From Patescibacteria group bacterium (lineage in GTDB: Bacteria; Patescibacteriota; Patescibacteriia; 2-12-FULL-60-25): DNA of 64,000 bases. The notes beneath the pieces were generated by a model. The model saw only the letters and a list, made by a program, of their open reading frames with translations. It was not told the DNA's origin and did not search any database. Position numbers and translations under genes: made by a program. This document shows, piece by piece, positions 1-50,273 of this stretch. Where the stretch lies: NCBI GenBank assembly GCA_028715505.1, contig JAQURS010000006.1, positions 1-64,000 on the forward strand, in the 5' to 3' direction. Positions within the stretch are counted from its first letter, which is position 1; every line of letters starts with the position of its first letter.

Positions 1-2
1 TC

Positions 3-371
3 CCAAGACTGAAAGCTTTGAAAATGTATGAATCACATCATCAGATCAAGAGTGATTTGTTGGCCACGGCTGGGTTGGATTTTCACCGCGAATCGCACTT
101 TGGCGGTCCATACGTCAAACTCGCGCCAAACGAGTTTTCGGAAAGCGCCATTTTGTCTTTATTGAAAAACGGCAGTTATGAAATTGAAAGAGGCGGCCTA
201 CGGATCGGCCCGCGTGCCGAGCTGGGAGGTTTGAACCGATGGAGGATCGGATTTGGCAGTTTTTTCTCGACTGGGTTGATCGGATCTGGAAAGCGGATTG
301 GTAAATGGATGCACGAACGGAATTTGAGCATGCCTAAAAAATTGAAGGAGGCGATCAGAAAACGTTTATGA
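3..371 (+). CDS. C-terminal part of an unidentified protein (5' end outside window)
   Basis: The frame is open from the first bases of the window, so this is the 3' end of a gene that starts upstream; the TTG at 18 is only a default start. About 120 residues are visible. The last 25 are Lys/Arg-rich, and I see no signal peptide, membrane segment or recognisable motif. The stop overlaps the next start (ATGA at 368-371), so it is the leading visible member of the glycan operon. A role in sugar handling is a guess from context only. Confidence 0.6.
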   Translation, partial: PRLKALKMYESHHQIKSDLLATAGLDFHRESHFGGPYVKLAPNEFSESAILSLLKNGSYEIERGGLRIGPRAELGGLNRWRIGFGSFFSTGLIGSGKRIGKWMHERNLSMPKKLKEAIRKRL

Positions 372-1504
372 AATTACTGATTGCCACAGGCATTTATCCG
401 CCCGAAATCGGCGGGCCAGCCGGCTACGTGCGCGGCTTGGCAACCGAGCTTGTCCGCCGCAGCCATCAGGTCTCGGTCGTGACTTACGGGACGGAAGAAA
501 CTGAAAAGCTCCATCAAGCCGATGGTCGCGGCTTTAGTTTAACCGTTATCCCGCGCACGTTCGGACCTTTGGTCCGGTACTGCCGCTACGCTTTGGCAGT
601 ACGCCGGCTGGCCCGGGCTGCCGATCTGGTTTACCTGCAAGGCCCGGTTTCTGAAGGCTTTCCTGGCATGGTCGGGGCTTTGTTGGCCGGCAAACCAACC
701 GTCTTAAAAATCGTAGGGGATTACGCCTGGGAACAATACCAACAAACGTCCGTCAAAAATCCCGAGCTACTCGATGAATTTTTAGGCCATCGCCACGGAG
801 GCAAGATCAGGATCTTCGAGGTTTTAGAGCGTTGGACGGCCAAGCGGTCAAAACAAATCATTGTGCCGAGCAAGTATCTCGCGTCAGTCGTTGAGAAGTG
901 GGGGATGGCGCCGGAAAAGATTAAAGTCATTTACAACAGCATTGAACCGTTACCTTCTGTTAGCGGTAAGAATTTAAGGTCAGAGCTTAAACTCGAAAAT
1001 AAAAAAATAATTCTGACTGTCGTGCGGGCCGTACCGTGGAAGGGCGGAGATTTTCTTTGTGATTGCTTGAAGGAGTTACCGGAAGATTATGTTTTAGTCG
1101 TGGCGGGCGACGGTCCGAGTTTGGAGGCTTGGAAAAAATACGCGGAACAATTGGACGTCTCAGCTAGAGTCAAATGGCTTGGGCGGCTTTCAAGAACAGA
1201 TGTTGCGGATTGGTATCGGATAGCTGACGTTTTCGCATTAGCGACGGGTTACGAAGGATTTCCTCACGTAGTAGTCGAAGCCTGTTCAACCGGCTTGCCC
1301 TGCATCGTGAGCGACCGCGGAGGCAATCCTGAGACAAAGGATTTTTATCCTGACTTAGTCACGGTCGCCTCGTATCGGGACAAACAAGCTTGGCTTGAGG
1401 CGATCAAGCGATCTGGTGGAAGAAGGGACGGACAGAAGAATGCAGAACTAAATTTCGAGCACATGGTTGATCAAACGGCCGGAATTTTAACTTCGAACAT
1501 ATGA
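368..1504 (+). CDS. GT4 family glycosyltransferase
   Basis: A cytoplasmic GT-B fold enzyme that would transfer a sugar from a nucleotide donor onto the growing lipid-linked glycan. The N-terminal half has the glycine loop typical of GT4 (EIGGPAG, about residues 13-19). The C-terminal half carries the donor-site EX7E pattern in EGFPHVVVEA (about 296-305), followed by a G-LPCIVSD strand. The length of 378 aa is normal for the family. It overlaps both neighbours by ATGA, which points to translational coupling. Donor and acceptor cannot be read from the sequence. Confidence 0.9.
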   Translation: MKLLIATGIYPPEIGGPAGYVRGLATELVRRSHQVSVVTYGTEETEKLHQADGRGFSLTVIPRTFGPLVRYCRYALAVRRLARAADLVYLQGPVSEGFPGMVGALLAGKPTVLKIVGDYAWEQYQQTSVKNPELLDEFLGHRHGGKIRIFEVLERWTAKRSKQIIVPSKYLASVVEKWGMAPEKIKVIYNSIEPLPSVSGKNLRSELKLENKKIILTVVRAVPWKGGDFLCDCLKELPEDYVLVVAGDGPSLEAWKKYAEQLDVSARVKWLGRLSRTDVADWYRIADVFALATGYEGFPHVVVEACSTGLPCIVSDRGGNPETKDFYPDLVTVASYRDKQAWLEAIKRSGGRRDGQKNAELNFEHMVDQTAGILTSNI

Positions 1505-2580
1505 AAGTCCTGATGATCAGTTTGGAAAGAGGCTTGTTTGAAGACGGATCCGTGAGACGCCGCATTGTCGAACAAAATCAAAAAGTCGAAGAGTTGACGA
1601 TCCTGGTTTTGGGCAAGCAGCTTTTTGACCAGATGGTCGCGCCAAACGTCAGAGTGGTTTCGACGGCTTCTTGGTTCAGGTTTTTTTATATTTTCGATGC
1701 TTGGCATCGTTTATGGGTTTGGCGGAAGGAAGAATTTGACGTGGTCACAACCGATACGGTTGAAACGGCTTTGGTAGGCGCTTTTGCTGCGCGGATTTTC
1801 GTGGCCGCTTGGGCCGTTCAGGATCATGGTTATTATTTTCATGGCGATTATTATCGTAAGGAATCTTTTACCAACCGTTTCCTTTATCTCTTCATGCGCT
1901 GGGCGGTCAAGCGTGCTGAAGCCGTGCGAGTCGTAAGCCAAAGGACGGAAAATGCCTTGATCAAGCTTGGCGTTTCGCCGGACAAGATCGTTAGGTTCCC
2001 GTTGGCTGTCACAAGCAACGTACAACGTATAACGTACGACGTTGCTGAAAATATTGGATCATATTTTTTGCTCGTTGCGCGTTTCGTGCCCATCAAGCGC
2101 ATCGACCTGGCAATTCACGCGTTTAGTCTGATCGCCAACAGTCATCCTGACTTGAAGCTGGTCATCCAGGGTCGCGGACCATTGGAAGGACAAATCCGCA
2201 AAAAGATTCAAGAATTCGGGCTTGAGGACCGGATCGAGATTCGACCTTGGGGTGAAAATCTTTCAGAGTCGTACAGCGACGCCTTGGCGACTTTGATCAC
2301 ATCCGACCGCGAAGGTTTCGGCATGACGGCGGTTGAGTCGTTAACATGCGGAACTCCCGTCATTATGACTGACGTGGGCTGTGCCGGTGAAGTCGTCAAA
2401 GACGGGGAAAATGGGTACGTCGTCCCGGTCGGGGATGTTGACGCGTTGGCAGATAGAATGGAGAGGGTGATTATGGATTCGGCTATGCTTAGGGAAAAAG
2501 CCCGGGATTATTCTTGGACGAGCGAAGGCCCAGGGATGTTTGATTTGTATCAAAAGGCGCTCGCGAACCGTCATAAATAG
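1501..2580 (+). CDS. GT4 family glycosyltransferase
   Basis: A second GT-B glycosyltransferase, 359 aa, coupled to the previous gene by ATGA. The donor-binding core is clear: YFLLVARFVPIKR (about residues 187-199) and EGFGMTAVES (about 270-279), followed by GTPVIMTDVG. The N-terminal domain is less typical and lacks the usual G-G loop. Between the domains, residues about 172-182 (SNVQRITYDVA) are encoded by a palindromic stretch of four 7-bp repeats, described separately. Specificity unknown. Confidence 0.88.
   Translation: MKVLMISLERGLFEDGSVRRRIVEQNQKVEELTILVLGKQLFDQMVAPNVRVVSTASWFRFFYIFDAWHRLWVWRKEEFDVVTTDTVETALVGAFAARIFVAAWAVQDHGYYFHGDYYRKESFTNRFLYLFMRWAVKRAEAVRVVSQRTENALIKLGVSPDKIVRFPLAVTSNVQRITYDVAENIGSYFLLVARFVPIKRIDLAIHAFSLIANSHPDLKLVIQGRGPLEGQIRKKIQEFGLEDRIEIRPWGENLSESYSDALATLITSDREGFGMTAVESLTCGTPVIMTDVGCAGEVVKDGENGYVVPVGDVDALADRMERVIMDSAMLREKARDYSWTSEGPGMFDLYQKALANRHK
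2014..2046. repeat. Palindromic 7-bp tandem repeat inside a glycosyltransferase gene
   Basis: Four consecutive heptamers of the form AACGTAY (2017-2023, 2024-2030, 2031-2037 and a degenerate 2038-2044) lie between inverted arms AGCAACGT (2014-2021) and ACGTTGCT (2039-2046). The tract sits in frame in the coding sequence. The unit length is not a multiple of three, so gain or loss of a unit would shift the frame. Confidence 0.75.
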
Positions 2581-2581
2581 T

Positions 2582-3586
2582 ATGGATCAGCGTCTGCTTT
2601 TCGTAACTCAAACCGTTGACCGGCAAGACGGTGTTCTTGGCTTTGTCGTTCGTTGGTTGGAAGAATTCGTGGCCCAGAACGTCAAATTAACCGTCTTTGC
2701 CAGAATTTTGAAAAAAGAAGATTTGCCGCCCGATGTCCGTGGAATTGAAATAGGAAAACCAAAAATTCGGCGTATCTTAAAACTCTGGTGGTATTCGATT
2801 AAATACAGGCAGGAATACGATTCCGTTTTAGTCCACATGACTCCCGAGATCTTGGTTTTAGGCTGGCCGGTTTGGTTTTTGCTCCGAAAAAAAGTTTATC
2901 TTTGGTATATCCATCCTAAAGTATCGCGCTGGCTCAAGATTGGATCACTTCTTTGTCAAAAGATATTCACAGCCACGGAAAACAGCATTTCGCTCCAAAC
3001 TTCCAAGAAGACGGTTGTTGGCCATGGAATCGACACGGAAGTTTTCAAGCCCGTCATCGAAGACAAAAACCAGCCAGTCGTGCTTTACGTGGGCAGGATT
3101 TCGCCCATCAAACACGTCGAGAGCCTGGTCGAGTTTTTGGGTAAGTACCATCAAACCTACCCTTCGGATAACTGGATTTTTTCTTTAGTCGGATCATATC
3201 GCGGCCACGAGGATTATTTCGAAAGCATAAAAAAGCGGGCAGCTGAATTGGGGATTGGGGACCGAATGATCCAGCATGAACCGGTCGAACACAGCCTGTT
3301 GCCCGAAGTTTTTTCGGCGGCTTGCGTCAGTTTGCACGCCACGCCAACCGGAAGTTTGGATAAGGTCGTATTGGAATCGTTGGCTTGCGGCACGCCGGTC
3401 ATCGCGGTCGGAAAGGATTATCTCGCGTTGAGGGGCGTCATGGACATGAATAATCCGCGGTCTTTGGAGGATTTGCACGCTCTGCTCATGAACCCTAAAA
3501 TCGACATCGAAGCCAGGCAGGGTATAATTGATAAGCATGATTTAAAACGGCTTATATCTGTTTTGGTTCCTAACCTTTCGAAATGA
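2582..3586 (+). CDS. Glycosyltransferase, GT4-like
   Basis: A 335-residue GT-B type transferase. I start it at ATG 2582 (MDQRLLFVTQ), one base after the previous stop (TAG-T-ATG), rather than at the in-frame ATG 2540, which would run back into the neighbour. The donor domain is recognisable from VVLYVGRISPIKH (about residues 165-177) and VVLESLACGTPVIAVG near residue 260. The acceptor domain is divergent. No Shine-Dalgarno is visible, so expression probably relies on coupling to the upstream gene. Confidence 0.82.
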   Translation: MDQRLLFVTQTVDRQDGVLGFVVRWLEEFVAQNVKLTVFARILKKEDLPPDVRGIEIGKPKIRRILKLWWYSIKYRQEYDSVLVHMTPEILVLGWPVWFLLRKKVYLWYIHPKVSRWLKIGSLLCQKIFTATENSISLQTSKKTVVGHGIDTEVFKPVIEDKNQPVVLYVGRISPIKHVESLVEFLGKYHQTYPSDNWIFSLVGSYRGHEDYFESIKKRAAELGIGDRMIQHEPVEHSLLPEVFSAACVSLHATPTGSLDKVVLESLACGTPVIAVGKDYLALRGVMDMNNPRSLEDLHALLMNPKIDIEARQGIIDKHDLKRLISVLVPNLSK

Positions 3587-3589
3587 TTT

Positions 3590-4876
3590 ATGCGGGTTAT
3601 AGATTACTTGATGAAAAGAAGGGGTACGCTTAAAGAGTTGATGGTTTATTCCCTCCAAACTTACGGCGTAACCGTGGTCAGCATGATCGGAGCCATCATA
3701 ACGGTGCGCGTCCTAGACCGTTACGAATATGGCATTTATGGGATTATTTTTTCTATAATTGGAATAGTCTACGTCGTCTTAAATGCCGGGATCGTGCGTC
3801 AGGTAAGCAATCGCATCCTAGCGTCGCCACTTGAACAGGATGAGAAACGGTTGTACATGGCTTACACAAAGCAAGGTTTTATTTACACGTCACTGGTGGG
3901 AATAGCTTTGATTCCGGTTTTTTTGATTTTTTATGATTTTAAAACCACGCTCTACATATTTATCGCATTATTCGCCCAACACCTGATGGGCTTTATCGGG
4001 CTGTTGATTTTTTCCGAGATACGGGAGAGGAAACTGAAAGAATATTATTTACTCGAGACTTTGATCGAATACTCGAGGGTAGTCTTGCCGGTTTTAGGCG
4101 TAATTATTTTTAGGAATTTAGCTGGATATTTCGCAGGTTCTGCTTTAATCGTATTGGCTTCGGTCATCCTGATTTTTTCTTTCGCGTATTGGAGGAAAAA
4201 GGCCATGCATTACCTGTCAGAGATAAGGTTGTCATCCGTAAGTTTCAAAGAGTTCGGGCACTTGATCAGACTCGGTCTCAGCATGTCTTTGGAAAGCGGC
4301 GCGGCCACGCTTTACGCTTCGGCCCTGATTTTAATGGGCGCGACGTATCTGGGCGTGACTCAGGCGGCCGACCTTAAGGTCCTGATGGGTTATTTTACCG
4401 CCCTCGGCATGACCCTTTTGCCGCTAAACCGATGGGTGACTTTTCATCTTCCTAAGAAAATATCAAATTCGTCTAATCCGTTCCGTGAGCTTCTCAGGAT
4501 CGCGGGTTTAGCCACGGTCTTTATCCTCGCGGTTTATTTGGTCGGAGTTTTGGTCGGTCCCTGGCTCCTCCCGTTGGTTTATGGGCAGAAGTACGCGGGA
4601 GCCGCGGCGTACATTCCGTGGATCGGAGGCATGTTGGTATTCTCGTCCATGGCGATCGGTCTTAGCACGATCTCGAGGCAATATAAATTAAGTTTTTTGA
4701 ATGGCATCGTGAGCTTGACTAATATCGTTTTAGGTCTAATATTCGTAGTCAGTCCGTTTGGCCCTAGGAGCATCGCGGGATTCTCAATCTTTTATAGCTT
4801 ATGGCTTTTGCCTGCTTTAATCGCCACATATGCATTGGTCTATTTCCGAATACAAAGAAAAGTGGACAACGCGTGA
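3590..4876 (+). CDS. Polysaccharide flippase, Wzx/MVF-like
   Basis: A polytopic membrane protein of 428 aa with about 12 hydrophobic segments over its whole length, starting near residue 20 (YGVTVVSMIGAIITVRVL). The arrangement and length match the MOP/Wzx superfamily of lipid-linked oligosaccharide flippases, including an N-terminal LDRYEYGIYG, a common feature at the first loop. It would move the polyprenyl-linked glycan made by the neighbouring enzymes across the membrane. Its 3' end overlaps the next methyltransferase start by 47 nt. Confidence 0.85.
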   Translation: MRVIDYLMKRRGTLKELMVYSLQTYGVTVVSMIGAIITVRVLDRYEYGIYGIIFSIIGIVYVVLNAGIVRQVSNRILASPLEQDEKRLYMAYTKQGFIYTSLVGIALIPVFLIFYDFKTTLYIFIALFAQHLMGFIGLLIFSEIRERKLKEYYLLETLIEYSRVVLPVLGVIIFRNLAGYFAGSALIVLASVILIFSFAYWRKKAMHYLSEIRLSSVSFKEFGHLIRLGLSMSLESGAATLYASALILMGATYLGVTQAADLKVLMGYFTALGMTLLPLNRWVTFHLPKKISNSSNPFRELLRIAGLATVFILAVYLVGVLVGPWLLPLVYGQKYAGAAAYIPWIGGMLVFSSMAIGLSTISRQYKLSFLNGIVSLTNIVLGLIFVVSPFGPRSIAGFSIFYSLWLLPALIATYALVYFRIQRKVDNA

Positions 4877-49040: not shown

Positions 49041-49077
49041 AATAAAAACCGGTAGCCTACGGCTACCGGTTTTTATT
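49041..49077. terminator. Bidirectional intrinsic terminator
   Basis: A 17-bp perfect stem (49041-49057 with 49061-49077) with a 3-bp loop TAC and T/A runs at the base. It serves the Cache gene and the facing tRNA-Gln, and its last base is the terminal A of the tRNA CCA. Confidence 0.92.
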
Positions 49078-49150
49078 GGTTCCGGGACAGGGATTCGAAC
49101 CCCGATTCACGGCTTCAAAGGCCGCTGTCCTACCATTAGACGATCCCGGA
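49077..49150 (-). tRNA. tRNA-Gln (anticodon UUG)
   Basis: A complete cloverleaf on the minus strand, 74 nt with encoded CCA. Acceptor TCCGGGA/TCCCGGA, D arm GTCT/GGAC, anticodon stem GCGGC/GCCGT with loop CTTTGAA (anticodon UUG), T loop TTCGAAT, discriminator A. Confidence 0.95.
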
Positions 49151-49189: not shown

Positions 49190-49226
49190 GCCTAAAATTT
49201 AGTTAAAAAATATCCACATCCTACCC

Positions 49227-49254
49227 TTGACCGACTCGTTATGGATGTTATGTT
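49227..49254 (+). promoter_or_regulatory. Putative promoter of the structured RNA
   Basis: TTGACC (49227-49232), 16-bp spacer, TATGTT (49249-49254). Expected start near 49261, which coincides with the 5' edge of the proposed closing helix. Confidence 0.5.
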
Positions 49255-49260
49255 TTAAGT

Positions 49261-49650
49261 GCCGCTGATCATTGTGCTCCCGGTCAAACCAACGATGCAT
49301 CCAAGCGGTTGCCCAAACGTCCTTTCCCAAGCTTCATAACATGTGCCGCGCTTTTCTACCGATGAGTGCAACCCTTTCATTCCTCCTTTTCCTTTTTTCC
49401 GATCCCGATTCCTTCCGCCTCCTCCCGCCCTCCACCTCCCACAAACTCATCACACGAAACGCGCCTACATGTTATCCCATCTTGACCCACGTCAAGAACA
49501 AGCTCGCAACTTCACAGTTGTAGAGCCTTATCCAGCTTCCCGACAGTCCGCCGCTTGTCCCTTCTTCTTTTCTCCTTCTCTGTCCACCCCCGCCTCATTC
49601 TCTCCAGCGGGGCTTCGTTTTATACAGGGAGATTTGACGATTAATTTTTT
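49261..49650 (+). ncRNA. Putative structured noncoding RNA, unknown class
   Basis: The window's only long stretch without a convincing gene. Nested complementary segments are visible: CCGCTG (49262-49267) with CAGCGG (49605-49610); CAAGCGGT (49302-49309) with GCCGCTTG (49550-49557); ATAACATGT (49336-49344) with ACATGTTAT (49467-49475); GCGC (49348-49351) with GCGC (49461-49464); GATGAGT (49361-49367) with ACTCATC (49445-49451). Local hairpins lie at 49270-49297, 49480-49497 and 49502-49526. Two long loops (about 49368-49444 and 49558-49604) are almost pure C/U and contain CCTCC. A GC hairpin (49588-49612) and T-runs follow. It matches none of the RNase P, tmRNA, SRP or 6S signatures I know. 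The frames across it encode nothing protein-like. Confidence 0.6.
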
Positions 49651-49693
49651 TAAGAGTATTTTTGTAATCTAATTCTTGACCCGCACATGCAAT

Positions 49694-49840
49694 ATGTCAT
49701 TTGATGACGTAACAGCAGTCCCGAATAGCGACGAGTCAACTCAGGTTGAAACTCCAGTCCAAGAAGGAACGCCCTCAACGCCTGCCGAAGAGAGCTCCAC
49801 CGCGAGTGAACCAACCGAAGAAGGAGCCGCTCAGGCCTAA
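49694..49840 (+). CDS. Small acidic ORF (48 aa)
   Basis: ATG 49694 opens a 48-codon frame starting MSFDDVTAVPNSDES and ending EEGAAQA. It is rich in Glu, Ser, Thr and Pro with no Lys or Arg, so it is likely disordered. A textbook terminator begins 13 bp after its stop, which supports it as a real transcript end. No Shine-Dalgarno. I recognise no family. It could instead be the 3' part of the adjacent RNA transcript. Confidence 0.5.
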   Translation: MSFDDVTAVPNSDESTQVETPVQEGTPSTPAEESSTASEPTEEGAAQA

Positions 49841-49852
49841 TTGGTAAAATGG

Positions 49853-49880
49853 AACCCGCTTAAAGCGGGTTTTATTTTTT
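49853..49880. terminator. Bidirectional intrinsic terminator
   Basis: AACCCGCTT (49853-49861) and AAGCGGGTT (49863-49871) with a run of T to 49880. It overlaps the last codons of the facing Smr gene. Confidence 0.9.
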
Positions 49881-50237
49881 ATTTGGCGCGAGGGCAACCA
49901 AAGTCACGCCGTTCATTTGCCTGGGGTCATTGCTGTTCCTGAATTTGACCACGAATTTTTTAGATTTATCAAGATAATCCGCCACCATCTTCTGCAAGGT
50001 TCCGCTACCTCGACCATGTATGACTTTGACGATTTTGACTCCCGTTCTGGGCGGATCCATAAATTCCTTATGCAAAAAATTCCCCAAGGCGTCTATGGCT
50101 AATTTAGGTTCAAGATCGTGCAGGTCGACTTTCGGAGTCTCATTGCTTAACTCGGCCGCGAAGAAAGCGATCTCAATCGGATCGGAGGGTTCCTCGGGCA
50201 CGGGAGACTCAATTCTTGGCGTGTTTCTCCATTTCAT
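49872..50237 (-). CDS. Smr-domain protein
   Basis: A 121-aa stand-alone Smr (small MutS-related) domain: KVDLHDLEPKLAIDALGNFL (about residues 35-54), then VKIVKVIHGRGSGTLQKMV (about 64-82), which carries the HGxGxG signature of Smr nucleases, and VTLVAL at the end. The first 30 residues are Pro/Glu-rich. Smr domains nick DNA or cleave RNA, for example on stalled ribosomes. I start at ATG 50237, which lies 6 bp after a -10 box; the ATG at 50273 lies in the -35. Confidence 0.88.
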   Translation of the reverse strand: MKWRNTPRIESPVPEEPSDPIEIAFFAAELSNETPKVDLHDLEPKLAIDALGNFLHKEFMDPPRTGVKIVKVIHGRGSGTLQKMVADYLDKSKKFVVKFRNSNDPRQMNGVTLVALAPNKK

Positions 50238-50243
50238 TCGTTC

Positions 50244-50273
50244 AATATATAACTGATAACTTACAACTGACAA
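50244..50273 (-). promoter_or_regulatory. Leaderless-type promoter of the Smr gene
   Basis: On the minus strand TTGTCA (50268-50273), 18-bp spacer, TATATT (50244-50249), 6 bp before ATG 50237. It shares its -35 bases with the divergent nuclease promoter. Confidence 0.65.

Follow-up and report, generated by a model that had tools for sequence, protein, structure and literature searches.

A predicted structured RNA gene with long pyrimidine-rich strands, shared by four species within a Patescibacteria genus

Positions 49227-49622 (plus strand) of the window, the 64,000-nucleotide stretch of a Patescibacteria genome that was analysed here, are, judged from the sequence, a standalone RNA gene with a promoter and a terminator. 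The predicted product is a real structured RNA that belongs to a familiar general kind but to no listed Rfam family, and it is lineage-restricted, being known so far from four species of a single Patescibacteria genus. The locus combines the general features of a trans-acting structured noncoding RNA, namely its own promoter and terminator, noncoding sequence and a conserved fold. We favor the reading, to which we assign a probability of about one half, that this is a standalone lineage-restricted RNA acting in trans by presenting unpaired pyrimidine strands, probably to a protein. The intergenic span that holds it lies between a tRNA-Gln gene (49077-49150, minus strand) and a gene for an Smr-domain protein (49872-50273, minus strand), and contains the following features, with the 5' end of the RNA inferred from the promoter and the 3' end from the terminator:

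49212-49226, plus strand: upstream element ATCCACATCCTACCC, directly 5' of the -35 box and near-invariant in the four species
49227-49254, plus strand: promoter, with TTGACC (49227-49232), a 16-nt spacer, a TGn extended -10 and TATGTT (49249-49254)
49261-49622, plus strand: noncoding RNA of ~362 nt, called from its fold z score, its homologs in three species and its broken reading frames
49261-49309, plus strand: 5' hairpin P1 (P1a 49261-49266/49304-49309; P1b 49270-49275/49292-49297), with the loop words UUGUGC and CCGGU
49336-49475, plus strand: long arm P2 (P2a 49336-49345/49466-49475; P2b 49348-49356/49456-49464; P2c 49361-49367/49445-49451)
49368-49444, plus strand: pyrimidine-rich apical loop of P2, including CCTCCTTTT at 49382-49390 and CCTCCTCCC at 49418-49426
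49480-49497, plus strand: hairpin P3 (49480-49486/49491-49497), at the same position in all four species
49498-49558, plus strand: P4 (49498-49503/49553-49558), immediately 3' of P3, enclosing 49 nt that include a hairpin (49506-49511/49516-49521)
49559-49587, plus strand: pyrimidine-rich single-stranded 3' linker, within the second-ranked 72-nt pyrimidine tract
49588-49622, plus strand: intrinsic terminator, a stem (49588-49593/49607-49612) followed by a U-rich tail

When 193 genomes were searched at the DNA level, convincing relatives came only from three further species in the genus, STD1_126 (G004, JAQULH010000003.1), SKS1.bin59 (G002, JAJZQU010000004.1) and RA.bin129 (G005, JAKLEH010000015.1); the G004 homolog is 72% identical to the RNA locus of the present genome (G000) across 420 nt. 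A covariance model of the promoter and 5' domain recovers the same four species; its other scores, over 9 genomes of the genus, 41 of the family and a wider sample of 193 from the class, are no better than chance. Weak matches to this model elsewhere in the class (E 0.004 to 0.06) were taken as chance, the six alignments that were read having neither the promoter, the loop words nor the helices, and the surroundings of the best of these matches, in G008, appear to be coding. A motif scan of 84,980 GTDB species returned the three known relatives and four matches in unrelated bacteria, about the number expected by chance and none with the surrounding features; three motif matches in IMG/VR are likewise near chance expectation and without those features. 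Phage and plasmid records contain no match to the RNA. Only a single copy of 49261-49622 was found.

The flanks of tRNA-Gln and Smr, where an initial annotation of this DNA had suggested that homologs be collected, yielded them in G004, G002 and G005, but a synteny search found no hidden copy there in G001, G003, G006, G008, G012 or G013. In an aminopeptidase tree G001, which is without the RNA, is nested inside the group that bears it; the RNA must therefore have been lost, or altered until no longer recognizable, at least once, and is thus dispensable and not essential. G006 also has no RNA, either at the locus or by model search, and its position in the tree is not fixed. In all four species the RNA adjoins tRNA-Gln and is oriented toward the Smr gene. 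The tRNA gene is divergent from it in three species and co-directional in G005, and a phosphoribosyl-transferase-like gene lies between the RNA and Smr in G004, G002 and G005 and is missing from the G000 window. Promoter, RNA and terminator remain together although these neighbors rearrange. The span also includes a small acidic open reading frame (49636-49840, plus strand) that starts at about 49703 and has no Pfam match; it has a separate promoter (TTGACG-17-TATTTT), and its leader is similar to CTAATTCTTGACCCG..GCATATG. Frames like it lie beside Smr in G004, G001 and G006.

The promoter TTGACC-16-TATGTT, proposed in the initial annotation, is present, and none of the four species departs from its spacer length or lacks the TGn. 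Across the upstream element and promoter 33 of 43 positions are invariant, a count that leaves out a 1-nt insertion in G005, the sole deviation of note in the upstream element. RNAalifold (model R1) pairs the upstream element with the -10 region in an imperfect dyad (49212-49254) that is kept in the four species, which suggests that transcription from this promoter is regulated, the dyad possibly being an operator; no second copy of the element was found among the 464 kb of G000 sampled. The terminator hairpin (CCCCGC/GCGGGG) lies ~330 nt downstream of the promoter, and its stem and U-rich tail are retained in all four species, placing the 3' end of the RNA near 49622.

Minimum free energies compared with dinucleotide shuffles give z scores of -6.0 (G000), -5.3 (G004), -2.1 (G002) and -3.9 (G005), and the P2 domain alone gives -5.1, -5.0, -2.4 and -2.5, respectively. 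RNAalifold z scores on plain MAFFT alignments weaken from -4.9 (G000 and G004) to -2.4 (three sequences) and -1.3 (four), because, we believe, MAFFT misplaces the G005 helices; the helix comparison was made by position for that species, and covers four sequences. P1a has the same sequence in all four species, while P1b varies in sequence and register, and no segment of the RNA is better conserved than the 5' strand and loop of P1, where 19 of 25 positions are invariant. P2, whose paired sequences in G000 are TAACATG/CATGTTA, GCGC and GATGAGT/ACTCATC, has pairing probabilities of 0.96 to 0.99 in that species. P2c, P3 and P4 hold their positions while their sequences change between species. P2c is absent from G002 and becomes GCTCGT/ACGAGC in G005 (GCUCGU/ACGAGC in the RNA), with a chance below 0.005 of a helix at its place. 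P3 in G005 has the changed sequence GGCGATCGC/GCGAACGCC (RNA form GGCGAUCGC/GCGAACGCC) with one mismatch, and its local-fold P values are 0.006 (G000), 0.014 (G004) and below 0.001 (G005). P4 occurs at one location with three differing sequences, all Watson-Crick (GCCCUCC/GGAGGGC in G005), encloses 41 to 49 nt across species and has a chance of 0.001 to 0.006 per sequence of arising at its place; it competes with local pairs in G000 and G005.

These folds bear out the initial description of an unclassified structured RNA of ~360 nt, with three homologs, position-conserved helices and no Rfam match, and revise its helices. Of the four nested long-range pairs then proposed, two stand: 49336-49344/49467-49475 (P2a) and 49361-49367/49445-49451 (P2c), with pairing probabilities of 0.96 and 0.99. 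The pair 49302-49309/49550-49557 is peculiar to G000, since its 3' partner sequence is missing in the other three species, and its arms are used by P1a and P4. The arms of the outermost pair, 49262-49267/49605-49610, are invariant in four species, but they overlap P1a and the terminator stem, both of which are preferred in folding, and the pair may represent an alternative state. That description did not include P1, the intrinsic terminator or the module formed by P3 and P4.

Genome-wide statistics were taken from a 464-kb sample of G000, comprising the window and 400 kb from contigs C1-C3. The 72-nt tracts at 49372 (86% C+T) and 49537 (82%) rank first and second in this sample, once a single higher entry, a masked N run, is set aside, which agrees with the near-pure pyrimidine loops reported earlier. 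By C-over-G skew, the 362-nt RNA comes third among 22,822 windows. Long unpaired runs are 85% to 88% pyrimidine in G000, G004 and G002, and 75% in G005. The composition of the P2 loop is kept in G004, its length and sequence are not, and the loop is far shorter in G002; in the 3' linker, three species share parts of a CCCTTCTT-like sequence. A composition that persists while the sequence changes points to a protein, or to pairing with very loose requirements. However, given the weaker bias in G005 and the short loop in G002, the pyrimidines may not be the functional part.

Comparison between the species supports the layout of the gene, with a strong promoter of its own and an intrinsic terminator, and the folded and pyrimidine-rich parts of the RNA. 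In the reading that we prefer, the RNA would be expressed and act in trans. The helices would serve as a scaffold that keeps the near-G-free pyrimidine strands single, and these would be bound by a protein that reads composition and not exact sequence, with the conserved P1 loop giving specificity. Rho, S1-like proteins and cold-shock proteins, which all bind such strands in other bacteria, are candidate partners. Crude short motif patterns for the genes of Rho, S1, Hfq and cold-shock proteins found no match in the 464 kb of G000.

Because the P1 loop is invariant, a classic antisense seed remains the main rival. The RNA would then be a trans-acting antisense sRNA whose 5' hairpin loop (GAUCAUUGUGC..CCGGU) pairs near the start codon of a single mRNA or a small number of them. 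In favor of this, no other part of the RNA is as well conserved as the loop, and the complement of the loop resembles a ribosome-binding site, GGAGGCACAAUGAUC, in G004 and G002. The AUG-like part of this resemblance is, however, not retained in G005 (AUA), P1b takes up part of the seed segment in pairing, and no convincing target emerged when the unpaired segments were scanned for duplexes with 456 gene starts. In that scan the lowest duplex energies mostly came from leaders rich in GC or purines, among them those of GGGAG-leader genes on contig C3 of G000. We consider an antisense function unlikely on balance, though it has a better claim than any of the readings that follow. Contig C3 also carries, at positions 1-4100 of the sequence L124 (minus strand), a row of small genes, several with a repeated hairpin leader, GAATCTCTGTCG..CGACAGGACGGAGATTC, and GGGAG before the start.

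Somewhat less probable again is that the RNA is a sponge that titrates protein, its two near-G-free pyrimidine strands being offered to a general single-strand binder (Rho or S1-like) and thereby tuning termination or translation initiation.

The initial annotation had also suggested that the loops bind Shine-Dalgarno sequences, and the doubtful rival that builds on this is a cuckoo-like anti-Shine-Dalgarno sRNA whose CCUCC loops mask such sequences and stop translation. Both CCTCCTTTT at 49382-49390 and its complement AAAAGGAGG are present as reported, the latter on the minus strand at 39015-39007, immediately before a GTG, as one site only. The CCUCC sites in the loops are unpaired (0.83 to 1.0), and the G000 RNA carries one CCUCCUCCC. 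Nevertheless, the number of CCUCC motifs in the whole RNA matches its composition (P 0.06 to 0.38), and the motif does not stay at fixed positions across species. Shine-Dalgarno words are also scarce: counted from first-ATG starts, which are approximate, a 4-nt word occurs at -15 to -5 in 70 of 414 genes, against 30 of 414 in a control window, so that only ~10% of genes have a signal above background. The binding proposal thus did not hold up. The 16S tail CACCUCCUUUCU is canonical in six species. In the same sample of the window and 400 kb of contigs C1-C3, a T precedes ATG in 59% of genes.

RNase P RNA, tmRNA, SRP RNA and 6S RNA had been set aside earlier as identities for this RNA, and the Rfam search proposed at that time agrees, naming no known class. 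At gathering thresholds, the only Rfam 15 matches in the window are two tRNAs, and permissive filters add only chance matches. RNase P RNA (RF00010) is encoded elsewhere (G000:C1:195260-195728) and so is tmRNA (RF00023; G000:C10:1168-1562), the RNA locus matching neither family, and ARAGORN finds no tmRNA within the window. A strongly diverged known class, for example SRP RNA or 6S RNA, is nonetheless suggested by the genus itself: the small and large SRP RNA models (RF00169, RF01854) have no match in five of its genomes (G000, G001, G002, G004 and G005), and the 6S RNA model (RF00013) finds nothing above cut-off in six genomes and nothing in G000. However, species without the RNA likewise have no detected SRP RNA, the RNA shows none of the cores that these classes require, permissive Rfam filters bring out no match beyond chance, and loss in G001 is unexpected for an essential RNA, which makes such an identity highly improbable. 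The undetected SRP RNA of the genus may be diverged, in an unassembled part, or absent. No paper on structured noncoding RNAs from Patescibacteria came up in our literature searches.

The adjacency of the small acidic frame, on the same strand in G000 and G004, raises the marginally more remote alternative that the RNA is its long leader, with an attenuator; yet the frame has its own promoter 3' of the terminator, G001 and G006 have the frame without the RNA, and G002 has the RNA without the frame. Least credible of all is a protein-coding gene or chance sequence: open frames of 83 and 109 codons traverse the RNA, but they are broken between species by 1- and 2-base indels and stops, while promoter, helices and terminator are conserved.

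Among known systems, the RNA resembles the cuckoo/alpha-r14 sRNAs of Alphaproteobacteria (e.g., NfeR1) in being a hairpin RNA with C-rich unpaired loops, one of which in G000 contains CCUCCUCCC. Members of that family have three hairpins with an identical unpaired CCUCCUCCC in each (PMC10746234). The present RNA, by contrast, has this sequence once in G000 and in none of the three relatives, is much longer and differently laid out, and does not belong to the family. It is also like Yfr1 of cyanobacteria, a family of structured, standalone sRNAs that is likewise conserved within a single bacterial group. Yfr1 carries an unpaired C/U-rich motif. It is described as near-universal in cyanobacteria and conserves a single motif, whereas the present RNA is found in four species and conserves composition only; at the level of alignment, the comparison with Yfr1 consists of the Rfam scan alone. 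Rho utilization (rut) sites are long unpaired C-rich, G-poor strands, a likeness to the present strands that is compositional only; rut sites are carried by transcripts destined for termination, whereas these strands belong to an RNA that has its own intrinsic terminator. RNase P RNA, tmRNA, SRP RNA and 6S RNA are likewise structured bacterial RNAs of 100 to 400 nt with their own promoters, and differ in being Rfam families, which this RNA does not match.

A structured RNA outside Rfam with a conserved promoter and fold suggests that these reduced genomes acquire and shed RNA genes peculiar to them. If the sponge reading is true, the RNA would act in cells that rarely use Shine-Dalgarno sequences. 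The combination of pyrimidine strands with a scarce Shine-Dalgarno signal offers a testable link to Shine-Dalgarno-independent translation or to Rho.
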